A stretch of DNA of 64,000 bases from Pseudonocardiales bacterium (GTDB lineage Bacteria > Actinomycetota > Actinomycetes > Mycobacteriales > Pseudonocardiaceae), in contig JAHEXI010000009.1 of assembly GCA_023252195.1 (NCBI GenBank), positions 1 through 64,000 on the forward strand. The letters are read 5' to 3'. A program made the position numbers and the translations under genes. The notes below the pieces were generated by a model. That model saw only the letters and a list, made by a program, of their open reading frames with translations, was not told the origin of the DNA and made no database searches. Shown here piece by piece: positions 61,095 to 64,000 of this stretch. Every line of letters starts with the position of its first letter. The first letter of the stretch is position 1.

Positions 61095-62333
61095 CTAGGA
61101 CTCGACTTGCTCCATCGCGCGGCGCGCGAAGGCCGGGGCGTGCTCGGGTCGGAAGCCGAGGCCCAGCAGTCGGGCTGGGATGTATGACAGCTGGGGGAAC
61201 CGCGCGAACAGCTTGATCATCGGCGGGGGCGGCCCGTTGCGCTTGCCTGCCATCACCGGGCGCATCACGGTCTGGTGCAGGATCCGCTGCAGCCCCTGCA
61301 CCAGCATCGTGGGCAGCAGGCGGCGCGACCGGACCTTCGCCAGGTCGGCGGGGGTCGGCCGGCCACGGCGAAGCGGCTCCGCCAGCAGCGTTGCAGCGGC
61401 GACGGCGTCCTGCACGGCCAGGTTGATGCCCACCCCGCCGACCGGCGACATGGCGTGCGCCGCGTCGCCGATGCAGAGCAGGCCGTCGATGTGCCACTCG
61501 CTTAGCAGGTTCAGTCGCACGTCGAGGAACTTGACGTCGTCCATCGTCGCCAGCTCGTGCACCCGATCGGCGAACTCGGGACAGACTTCGGTCACGTTGG
61601 CTCGGAACGCCTCGATGCCTTCCTTGCGGAGGTCGGCGCCCTTGGGCGCAAGGTAGGCGATCTGGAAGTAGCCGGTGCGCGGCAGGGGCACGGCGAACCG
61701 GCGATTGCGCAGCCGCGGGGTGAGCATGTCTTGGCCTTCGTCGTCGTGGCGGGAAAGGCGGAACCACCAGACGTCGAACGGGCAGTCGTACTCCTTGGGC
61801 TCCAGGCCCGCGTCGCGCCGGGCCAGCGACCAACGGCCGTCGGCGGCGATGACCAGGTCCGCGCGGAGCTCACCCTTGGTGCCCTCGGCTGTCTTGTAGC
61901 AGATCCCAGCGACCCGGCCGCCTTCGCGGATCAGGCCGGTCACCTCGGTCTCCATCCGGAGCGTGAACGTCTTTTCGTTGGCGGCGCTGTCGGCGAGCAG
62001 GTTGAGGAAGTCCCACTGCGGCACCATTGCGATGTACGGGTGCGGCACCTTCAGCCGGGTCATGTCGGCCAGCTTCATCATGCCGCCGTCGTCGGTGGGG
62101 AACCCGGCTGAGGTGAGCTCGCTGTGCGGCACGGCGTCGAACTTCTCGCCCAGCCCCAGCTCGTCGAGCAGGGTCAGCGTTGACGGGTGCACCGTGTCGC
62201 CGCGGAAGTCTCGCAGGAAATCGGGGTGCTTTTCCAGCACCGTCACCTCGACCCCGGCCCTGGCCAGTAGCAGCCCTGCCACCATGCCGGCCGGGCCGCC
62301 ACCTACCACCACGCAGCCCGTGCGCTCGGTCAT
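61095..62333 (-). CDS. Class A FAD-dependent monooxygenase
   Basis: The protein has 412 residues, starting at ATG 62333. The FAD-binding CVVVGGGPAGMVAGLLLARAGVEVTVLEKH (residues 6-35), the DG motif LVIAADGRWSLAR near 165 and the GD motif LLCIGDAAHAMSPVGGVGINLAVQDA near 290 are intact. It probably hydroxylates an aromatic or polyketide-like substrate using NAD(P)H and O2. The substrate is unknown. The gene is complete, unlike the related gene at 57 kb. Confidence 0.92.
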   Translation of the reverse strand: MTERTGCVVVGGGPAGMVAGLLLARAGVEVTVLEKHPDFLRDFRGDTVHPSTLTLLDELGLGEKFDAVPHSELTSAGFPTDDGGMMKLADMTRLKVPHPYIAMVPQWDFLNLLADSAANEKTFTLRMETEVTGLIREGGRVAGICYKTAEGTKGELRADLVIAADGRWSLARRDAGLEPKEYDCPFDVWWFRLSRHDDEGQDMLTPRLRNRRFAVPLPRTGYFQIAYLAPKGADLRKEGIEAFRANVTEVCPEFADRVHELATMDDVKFLDVRLNLLSEWHIDGLLCIGDAAHAMSPVGGVGINLAVQDAVAAATLLAEPLRRGRPTPADLAKVRSRRLLPTMLVQGLQRILHQTVMRPVMAGKRNGPPPPMIKLFARFPQLSYIPARLLGLGFRPEHAPAFARRAMEQVES

Positions 62334-62396
62334 CCCGATCACCCTGTTTTCATCATCCGTTGAATATCTTGAGGATGCCCCTGGACCGGCTGTGCG

Positions 62397-62582: not shown

Positions 62583-63446
62583 TCACGAACCACCGGGACG
62601 CGCCGCATCGATCACTGGCGGAGGCAACCGCTGCGCCCACCGCTGGACGCTCCGCCGGTAGTAGAGGCCCCATCAGCACCGATCACTCCATAAAGATCTA
62701 GTCAGCAAGAAGGGCGAAGCTGCAGGTCCGATCTCGTCGTTTTCTTTCGAAGCCAGCGGAGCCCCGAGCACGTCGACGGTAATGCCAGGGTCTGCAGTCG
62801 CGACGCTGATCACCAATTGGTGACGGTATGACACAACTCATGTCCACATCGTAATAATTGCGTGCTCCGCAATCTGAAGTTAAGTCAACCGACATGTCGA
62901 CGTAACTTTGACGTAACGTTGCCAGTATCTAGAGCGACTTCTCCAGTAGTGCTGCTGGGACGGATGACCGTCGGAGACGAGGCAAGACGTTGGGTTACCC
63001 ACCCTTCATGGGTGGGTGAATGTGAGCGGTAAGTTATGGGTCCTGGGCTTGGTGACAGGAGGGCGAACGCTCAGTCGCTGCCCTCCGCTCGGGCACGCAC
63101 TCGTCCCGGCCTAGAGCCGCTCGGCCTCCTCCGCGCGGACGGCCGAGAGCTTCTCGGCCTCGGCACACCGGTGCTGCCTCGGCGTCCCTGTACTCGACGT
63201 CACCCAGACCGCTGGCGCTATCTCCGGTCGTCCCTGCGCCCGTGGCCCGTTCACGAGATCGCGGCGGTTCACCTTGTGTTCAGCACCGCTGCCCGTGTGG
63301 CGGGCGCGAGCAGGCACGCCGCCCCGTCACAGAGTCACCGAATGCTTATGTCTTGTCCCCCCGTCGGCTGGGTATCGCCAGGTGAGGGACGTATCCAGGG
63401 TCTTTCTGGGAAGAGAGGTTCCTAGGGAGAGGAAGAAGGTGCGGAT
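62583..63446. other. Long non-coding region before Trp/Gly/His peptide gene
   Basis: I see no convincing gene. It contains an 8-bp stem hairpin at 62997-63017 (ACCCACCC / GGGTGGGT). A 129-codon frame at 63036-63425 has no recognisable features. Confidence 0.4.
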
Positions 63447-63623
63447 ATGAAGATCAGGGCGATCTTCAGGCTTGGCCGCCATAGCCGCGACGATGACGAC
63501 GAGGGTCGTGGTTGGGGCCACTGGGGCCACGGCTGGGGCTGGGGCCACTGGGGCCACGGCTGGGGCTGGGGCGACTGGGGCCGCGGCTGGGGCTGGGGCC
63601 ACTGGGGCCGATGGGGAAGGTGA
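63447..63623 (+). CDS. Trp/Gly/His-repeat peptide, candidate exported precursor
   Basis: This 58-residue peptide has a basic N-terminus (MKIRAIFRLGRHSR), an acidic DDDDE patch and then a core of about 38 residues made only of Gly, Trp, His, Arg and one Asp. The core has ten-residue units of the form GWGHWGHGWG repeated about three and a half times. A GAAGAAGG-like ribosome site lies upstream. It is followed by a perfect 16-bp hairpin and, 96 bp later, an ABC exporter gene in the same direction, as in peptide-export cassettes. A modified peptide, a metal-chelating peptide or a cell-surface peptide are all possible. The antisense Pro/Gln frame is a less likely reading. Confidence 0.6.
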   Translation: MKIRAIFRLGRHSRDDDDEGRGWGHWGHGWGWGHWGHGWGWGDWGRGWGWGHWGRWGR

Positions 63624-63644
63624 GGAGTAACCGTCTGTGAATGG

Positions 63645-63690
63645 TGGGCGGTGGCCTCACTCCGGTTCACCGGGGTGAGGCCACCGCCCA
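63645..63690 (+). terminator. Hairpin between peptide and exporter genes
   Basis: TGGGCGGTGGCCTCAC (63645-63660) pairs perfectly with 63675-63690 across a 14-nt loop that itself holds CCGG repeats. It could act as a partial terminator, giving much more peptide mRNA than exporter mRNA. Confidence 0.8.
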
Positions 63691-63719
63691 CTCCAGACCC
63701 GTCAGAACCGAGGAGTGAA

Positions 63720-64000
63720 GTGCCGGTGTGGGAGGTAATGAGGTCGCTGGTGCGTCCGGGCTCAGGAAGCCTTGGCTCGGGGGATGGCGGCCAGGGTTTG
63801 GTGGAGCTGGCTCCGGCGGCGAGCCTGCAGGAAGTTTTTCGCCGGTTTTGGCCTGATGCCCGACCGTTTTGGCGGTGGTTGTGGCTGTCCCTGGTATTGA
63901 TCATCGTGACGCCGGTGGTGGACGCTGGCGCGATCTTGTTGTTCAAGGTGCTGGTCGATGAAGTGTTGACCCCGCGGGATTTCGGGGCGTTCCCGCCGGT
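63720..64000 (+). CDS. ABC exporter, N-terminal part (cut by window edge)
   Basis: The gene starts with GTG 63720 after GAGGAG. The visible 93 residues have a variable N-terminus (VPVWEVMRSLVRPGSGSLG) and then RFWPDARPFWRWLWLSLVLIIVTPVVDAGAILLFKVLVDEVLTPRDF. That is the first transmembrane helix and extracellular turn of a type 1 ABC exporter. The ATPase domain lies beyond the window. Position directly after the Trp/Gly/His peptide suggests that it exports this peptide. Confidence 0.75.
   Translation, partial: MPVWEVMRSLVRPGSGSLGSGDGGQGLVELAPAASLQEVFRRFWPDARPFWRWLWLSLVLIIVTPVVDAGAILLFKVLVDEVLTPRDFGAFPP

Follow-up and report, generated by a model that had tools for sequence, protein, structure and literature searches.

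What does a 58-codon gene, built around a tryptophan, glycine and histidine repeat, do directly ahead of an ABC exporter? The question arises at the end of a stretch of 64,000 nucleotides from a Pseudonocardiales bacterium, called the window here, which represents contig C34:1-64000 within a 4.74 Mb genome. A preliminary description, made from the letters of the window, read the arrangement as the precursor, attenuator and exporter of a peptide secretion or RiPP-like system, and guessed that the peptide might be oxidised. The features of the window that this question concerns are the following.

63430 to 63439, + strand: probable ribosome-binding site of the peptide gene, AGGAAGAAGG (sequence reading; Shine-Dalgarno statistics in relatives).
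63447 to 63623, + strand: gene of a putative Trp/Gly/His-repeat precursor peptide, 58 aa (reading of open reading frames; leader and core recur in relatives).
63644 to 63691, + strand: hairpin, which probably (partially) terminates the peptide transcript (stem search and shuffles; the same as L004 3645-3692).
63720 to 64000, + strand: 5' part of an ABC exporter gene, which continues past the window and is truncated in the window genome (alignment to a paralogue).

The peptide gene is as it was first described. It starts with an ATG at 63447, its stop codon ends at 63623, and the protein reads MKIRAIFRLGRHSRDDDDEGRGWGHWGHGWGWGHWGHGWGWGDWGRGWGWGHWGRWGR. The composition includes 12 Trp, 18 Gly and 6 His, and all of the Trp residues fall within the last 37 positions (12/37). 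The layout is a leader, MKIRAIFRLG, followed by an acidic patch and the repeat core. The core had been described as a series of decads; its DNA has a period of 27 nt, and the repeat unit is therefore nine residues. As a lone query against 200 related genomes the peptide finds itself as the sole match. It has no match in NCBIfam, and leaders of the window type have none to the lasso RiPP leader model NF033521.

The strength of the hairpin was also confirmed. Its arms of 23 nt are 96% complementary with 2 nt between them, and its score was reached by 0/100 mononucleotide shuffles of the spacer (L017). In relatives, a hairpin was counted when a stem 3' of the peptide stop was reached by at most 1/100 mononucleotide shuffles, and 79/101 picked loci carry one on this definition (28/36, 18/29 and 33/36 across three bands of exporter identity). 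The arms vary in sequence among loci yet remain paired. The hairpin is kept in three loci free of an exporter (L231-L233), and for this reason we take it as more probably a (partial) terminator of the peptide gene than an attenuator of the exporter. Of the layout first proposed, a RiPP-like peptide system beside an exporter thus stands, and the attenuator probably does not.

The exporter has the same orientation as the peptide gene, as was noted from the start. Aligned to its paralogue, it begins at GTG 63720, with GAGGAG at 63710 ahead of the start. What the preliminary description could not see is that the gene is truncated. The match to an intact paralogue in the same genome (contig C5, L005 6138-8006, 622 aa; 84% identity) ends at residue 489/622, beyond which the window exporter shifts frame into a stretch resembling the far C-terminus. 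Its Pfam ABC_tran match ends at model position 94/137, and the rest of the nucleotide-binding domain is absent. The intact C5 paralogue is of the MsbA/Sav1866/ABCB type. Its Pfam matches are to membrane and ATPase-type domains only, with no C39 peptidase domain of the peptidase-containing bacteriocin exporters. It is a speculation that this Tyr-type paralogue could stand in for the truncated exporter; two genomes with no exporter at the Trp locus (G004 and G008) both have a Tyr-type exporter elsewhere.

The window genome holds further systems of this kind. In the C5 system (L005 5840-8006), the intact exporter follows a Tyr/Gly/Asn-rich peptide (MRVSDVFTPG...YYDG...) and a hairpin-like repeat; a MoeA-type gene flanks the system on either side, and a formate-dehydrogenase-like gene is its neighbour. 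A third system on contig C31 (L026 1200-3291, L070) consists of an Arg/His/Ser/Gly-rich peptide, MGDEVVTGYFKSFDRAL..., an exporter and a Ser/Thr protein kinase, in that order. Across four species the DNA of the 12 codons that follow the start of this third peptide is identical, suggesting constraint beyond the protein.

Exporters of the same clade were collected from 10/11 genomes of the genus (E 1e-120), 28/200 of the family (E 1e-170) and 17/394 of the class (E 1e-130). Named genomes were taken from the best 80 of 546 exporter relatives, more distant rows falling outside the clade, and these best 80 include Saccharopolyspora, Pseudonocardia, Streptomyces, Nonomuraea, Kitasatospora and others. 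On plasmids the exporter search gave two records, with no listed gene beneath the match. Directly upstream of clade exporters there is usually a short low-complexity ORF, and homologous short repeat ORFs beside exporters, which the preliminary description had proposed to look for, recur in relatives as separate genes, each with leader and repeat. Among named or MAG actinobacterial loci (L071-L122 and L128), a peptide was picked by eye in 51/53, five of them via the same locus under another id; the peptide of L102 is ambiguous, and L119 shows none. All 101 peptides of the full set were re-found in their own loci (101/101), 99 start with ATG, and a Shine-Dalgarno 4-mer precedes 70/101, where shuffles average 45.4 and reach at most 59. 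The neighbours were mostly read by ORF and BLAST, and contig edges cut several loci short. Because the 101 peptides were picked by eye, it is the tests of Trp and monooxygenase given below that carry the quantitative claims. A low-entropy scan of upstream DNA was rejected as a cargo detector, since control exporters overlap the clade in GC-rich DNA.

The cargo differs in composition by subclade, being Trp/Gly(/His), Tyr/Gly/Asn, Arg/Asp, Arg/His/Ser, Pro/Lys, Arg/Trp/Cys, Gly/Ser or other. Many cargo peptides follow a loose N-terminal pattern, which is MxIxxxF in most of the group of the window. Other N-termini are MAIFSDLFPA, MSFKKLAP and MSISTLFPTG, and L039, L043 and L074 deviate from the pattern. 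The conserved leader MxIxxxF is combined with varied Trp/Gly cores (alignment A3), the relation of leader to variable core that is expected of a RiPP. Leader pattern, ATG start and Shine-Dalgarno sequence recur across species despite different core DNA, and Tyr-core paralogues have the leader in common and the repeat DNA different. In 11/12 groups of related peptides, pN/pS is lowest in the annotated frame when the three same-strand frames are compared on a codon alignment built on the annotated frame, which favours that frame; the Saccharopolyspora Trp group departs from this (0.73 annotated vs 0.69). By this comparison, the window peptide gene is well supported as a real coding gene whose frame is under selection. 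Two arrangements of cargo stand by themselves. A His/Asp/Glu/Arg-rich stretch in G171 (L049, about 1300-1500) is apparently in frame with the exporter N-terminus, possibly as a cargo-exporter fusion. In Streptomyces-type loci (L113, L122, L192), two similar Pro/Lys/Ala-rich peptides (MSFHKVAPV..., MSFHKIAPV...) lie in tandem before the exporter.

Some of this cargo is accompanied by an enzyme. A Ser/Thr protein kinase lies directly downstream in 19/25 picked loci with an exporter identity of 50-58.5% whose downstream sequence extends for at least 1.4 kb, in 4/36 loci with an exporter under 48%, and in 0/33 at 62% or more. Kinase-linked cargo is mostly Arg/His/Ser/Asp-rich, with some Phe/Arg- or Gly/Ser-rich. 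The pairing of exporter and kinase suggests composition-specific tailoring. For the window peptide, reading past position 64000 revealed a candidate of another type.

Contig C34:65299-66531, + strand: VioD-like FAD monooxygenase, 410 aa (read past the window end, 1.3 kb downstream).

The preliminary description had named radical SAM, YcaO, P450 and protease genes as those that might follow. What follows is this flavoprotein gene; radical SAM, YcaO and P450 families do not recur in the neighbour clustering, read by eye. Likewise no protease family recurs there among the ORFs, read by eye, and a distant leader protease is possible. The early guess of oxidation has in this way gained a candidate modifying enzyme, and the modification itself is what we infer.

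By sequence, the best solved relatives of the enzyme are VioD structures, 8gqr (E 1.3e-42) and 3c4a (E 5.6e-40), the latter listed as 'probable tryptophan hydroxylase vioD', and the next match is at 3e-8. The AlphaFold2 model has a mean pLDDT of 88, and with it Foldseek places VioD in the top four positions (E 5e-31 to 8e-28), followed by kynurenine 3-monooxygenase (4e-19). FAD-type motifs are present. The motif WxWxIP of flavin-dependent Trp halogenases is absent, and Pfam Trp_halogenase scores 20.2 bits, under its cut-off of 21. By family the enzyme is an aromatic hydroxylase, as judged from sequence. Its nearest NCBIfam model is salicylyl-CoA 5-hydroxylase (380 bits vs a cut-off of 1078), and it misses the VioD equivalog NF053547 (203.7 bits vs a cut-off of 620). 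Because salicylyl-CoA 5-hydroxylase outscores VioD and both are far under cut-off, homology does not fix the substrate, and the best pointer to it is the Trp-rich neighbour peptide. Other flavoenzyme genes were seen in passing. On contig C31 of the same genome (L236 6754-9183) there are two tandem paralogues of the monooxygenase (55-56%), with no Trp/Gly peptide nearby. The window has another FAD-dependent oxygenase-like gene at 61095-62342 on the - strand, and in G009 (L299 655-2050) a Trp/Gly/His peptide with the leader MRIKELFGLG abuts the end of a homologue of that gene.

How closely the monooxygenase follows the Trp/Gly core was scored by tblastn of the window-genome enzyme against the loci together with a table of core composition, which replaced a neighbour clustering with some mis-assigned strands. 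With exporters of at least 62% identity (n=33), the monooxygenase lies beside 22/22 Trp/Gly-core loci and 0/11 loci with other cores, one of which (L008) has 294 nt of downstream sequence, with more shown by its close relatives. Exporter and monooxygenase are separated by an IS110 transposase gene at one of the 22 Trp/Gly loci (L039/L068), and they are convergent in Saccharopolyspora. Fisher's p for the association is 5e-9, relatedness being ignored. On the exporter tree, where one locus with a peptide cut by the contig end (L015/L055/L206, G006) is unlabelled, core type and monooxygenase change twice each and the changes coincide; a Tyr-core group is nested inside the Trp/Gly group and is without the monooxygenase. 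Two trait changes are too few for a phylogenetic test. Among picked loci with an exporter under 62% the monooxygenase is found in 0/65, a few of which show little downstream sequence. The Trp-rich Arg/Trp/Cys(/Gly) cargo of Nonomuraea, Planotetraspora and Microtetraspora (L100, L103, L104, L108, L112, L114, L117, L121) has neither monooxygenase nor kinase directly downstream within the 3 kb read for each. L194 also has Trp-rich cargo and no such monooxygenase adjoining. Since the Nonomuraea-type loci and L194 are without the enzyme, Trp alone is no predictor of the monooxygenase, and the Trp/Gly-repeat type is.

The same association appears when genomes are searched with a profile of 15 Trp/Gly peptides. 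It matches 13/200 genomes of the family, all among the 24 that have a monooxygenase of at least 58%. When the ten genomes that supplied the profile are left out, 7/7 profile matches fall within 14/190 (p 2.2e-9, relatedness ignored). The profile is insensitive, 11/24 monooxygenase genomes being missed, several of them with a Trp/Gly peptide.

The pairing also persists where the exporter is lost from view. G004 and G008 have peptide, hairpin and monooxygenase in this order, and the 14-15 kb read contain no exporter. In G026, peptide and monooxygenase are divergent and the exporter is absent from the stretch read; elsewhere in this genome (L293) a further Trp/Gly peptide lies ahead of an exporter (57%) that runs off the contig end. 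Contig C60 of G009 (L298) holds a second pair of peptide and monooxygenase without exporter, and ends inside the monooxygenase. Lone Trp/Gly peptides were seen as well. Six have the window-type leader (L290, L291, L292, L294, L295, L300; 6-8 kb read), and two have a lasso-type leader (L296, L297), with no monooxygenase or exporter in the 6-8 kb read. These copies were traced through a search of 12 chosen genomes for the repeat pattern, a noisy one in which controls also matched in most genomes. They imply that Trp/Gly peptides are independent genes, several of which could be served by one monooxygenase.

Another family of the same class (f20, which we take to be probably Frankiaceae) has a Trp/Gly peptide in the approximately 1.5 kb flank of 14/19 monooxygenase loci, and three of the five loci without one show under 300 nt upstream. 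The peptides of this family begin with MKATYEAP or similar, and 4/6 examined reach the cut-off of NF033521, the lasso RiPP leader. In L258/L268, L260 and L261, two different Trp/Gly peptides lie in tandem ahead of the monooxygenase. No lasso B (protease) or C (cyclase) gene was recognised among the ORFs of eight wide f20 loci, read by eye.

For a tree of the enzyme, copies of one locus were merged by sequence, matches of 200 query residues or fewer were skipped, and fragments under 300 aa (L016, L241) were left out. Of 61 monooxygenases, 45 form one clade with a support of 99, which includes all 37 peptide-linked members, 23 with a non-lasso leader and 14 with a lasso-type leader; leader classes follow a simple rule, 'MxIxxxF' in the tree meaning any non-lasso leader, with L068 and L047 set by hand. 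The eight unlinked members of the clade are four at contig ends (L206, L245, L247, L259) and four with flanks seen (L234, L235, L239, L266), L266 having repeat DNA upstream with no ORF that passes as a Trp/Gly peptide. Outside the clade, 0/16 are linked, as far as seen in flanks of which some are short (from 2 nt; most at least 1.1 kb). Comparison across these genomes shows at the sequence level that leaders, exporters and gene orders vary, and that the Trp/Gly core and this monooxygenase clade stay linked.

These observations lead us to the explanation that we hold to be reasonably probable: the peptide would be a RiPP-like precursor, on which the VioD-like monooxygenase oxidises Trp residues before export. 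The window gene would yield a precursor with an N-terminal leader (MxIxxxF) and a Trp/Gly/His repeat core, the leader being recognised by the exporter or the monooxygenase. The monooxygenase would then hydroxylate the indole rings of several core Trp residues, and the modified peptide would leave via the MsbA-type ABC exporter of the locus, or via an intact paralogue in the window genome. Some transcripts may stop at the hairpin, beyond the peptide gene, and the precursor would then be in excess over exporter and monooxygenase. As to the role of the product, we can guess at a redox-active or cross-linking peptide of the envelope or the extracellular space.

A wider reading is offered tentatively, and we think it rather less probable than not. 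In it, Trp/Gly(/His) repeats, multiply Trp-hydroxylated by the VioD-like monooxygenase, would define an undescribed RiPP class. Its product would be an indole polymer, secreted, redox-active and perhaps able to cross-link itself, and would parallel in bacteria the DOPA-rich adhesive proteins. The class would then belong, as a single branch, to a broader secretion system of actinobacteria. A single clade of ABC exporters would carry low-complexity cargo of interchangeable chemistry there (Trp/Gly, Tyr/Gly, Arg/Asp, Arg/Ser/His beside a protein kinase, Pro/Lys, Arg/Trp/Cys), and each kind of cargo would either have a tailoring enzyme of its own or lack one.

Other explanations start from the same observations. 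One is that the peptide is secreted unmodified, for a structural, antimicrobial or metal- or haem-binding role, and that the monooxygenase serves another substrate of the locus. Related exporters do carry other low-complexity cargo without the monooxygenase, as does the Nonomuraea-type Trp-rich cargo, and homology leaves the substrate of the enzyme open. However, the monooxygenase accompanies the peptide even in the absence of the exporter and across changes of leader or family, and a shared other substrate would need to track the Trp/Gly core every time, which makes this explanation unlikely in our judgement. The Trp-rich ORF could instead be a regulatory leader peptide. Classical amino-acid operons are attenuated by ribosome stalling on such leaders, and here stalling at Trp codons would control the hairpin and with it the expression of the exporter and the indole hydroxylase. 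The order of short Trp-rich ORF, hairpin and then exporter or VioD-like enzyme fits this. However, an attenuator should lie upstream of its target on the same strand, and the monooxygenase is on the opposite strand in Saccharopolyspora and divergent in G026. The eight lone peptides with the same leaders, and the hairpin that L231-L233 keep without an exporter, argue against it too. The f20 peptides carry a RiPP-type leader, sometimes as two genes in tandem (L258, L260, L261), and related exporters follow Tyr/Gly, Arg/Asp, Pro/Lys and other cores, so no single amino-acid signal fits. We regard attenuation as quite improbable.

The preliminary description had also allowed that the antisense Pro/Gln frame could be the coding one, to which may be added that the repeat could be non-coding DNA. 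The antisense frame across the peptide gene is indeed open for at least 174 aa, and the repeat opens several frames. However, the pN/pS comparison, scored on same-strand frames, favours the sense frame, the leader with its start signals recurs over different core DNA, and Tyr-core paralogues keep that leader on other repeat DNA. Either form of this idea is hardly credible.

The explanation of an oxidised and exported precursor can be set beside known systems. The best solved relative of the monooxygenase, by both sequence and fold, is VioD of violacein biosynthesis (PDB 8gqr, 8h0m, 3c4a), which differs in that the identity is 27% and the window-genome enzyme is below the equivalog cut-off. VioD is the tryptophan/indole hydroxylase of the violacein pathway, and its substrate is a small bis-indole. 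The VioD passage of PMC13285481 was set aside, since its subject is viomycin.

The nearest chemistry is trihydroxylation by BhaC1/AmmC1 of the ammosamide-type pathway, which two papers describe as an FMN-dependent trihydroxylase of peptide-bound Trp (PMC11117183, PMC12424672). The likeness, in proposed function only, is that of a flavoenzyme oxidising the indole of Trp on a ribosomal peptide. According to these papers, one ligase-appended Trp is modified there, whereas many gene-encoded core Trp residues would be here, and BhaC1/AmmC1 belongs to the tetratricopeptide-repeat proteins and has no canonical flavin site, whereas the window-genome enzyme is VioD-like. ChlH is the peptidic Trp halogenase of chlorolassin (PMC12518702), and is likewise a flavoenzyme acting on an internal Trp of a RiPP precursor. 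Its reaction there is halogenation, whereas the window-genome monooxygenase lacks WxWxIP and stays under the Trp_halogenase cut-off. Lasso precursors share their leader (NF033521) with the f20 Trp/Gly peptides that reach its cut-off, whereas window-type leaders differ. In searches of open-licence full texts, we found no description of the pairing of Trp/Gly peptide and monooxygenase. A study on Streptomyces small ORFs (PMC10654065) could contain some of the Streptomyces cargo peptides.

Taken at the level of genes and genomes, Trp/Gly peptides, monooxygenase and exporter point to a hitherto undescribed family of peptides that are chemically modified and secreted. If true, this would be a new RiPP family, with many oxidised Trp in one peptide as its hallmark, and it would occur in culturable genera, namely Saccharopolyspora, Pseudonocardia and probably Frankia. 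The monooxygenase might then serve to hydroxylate Trp in peptides. The clades of exporter and monooxygenase are also markers for short low-complexity peptides of the kind that ordinary homology search misses, as the window peptide, which alone finds only itself in 200 genomes, illustrates.
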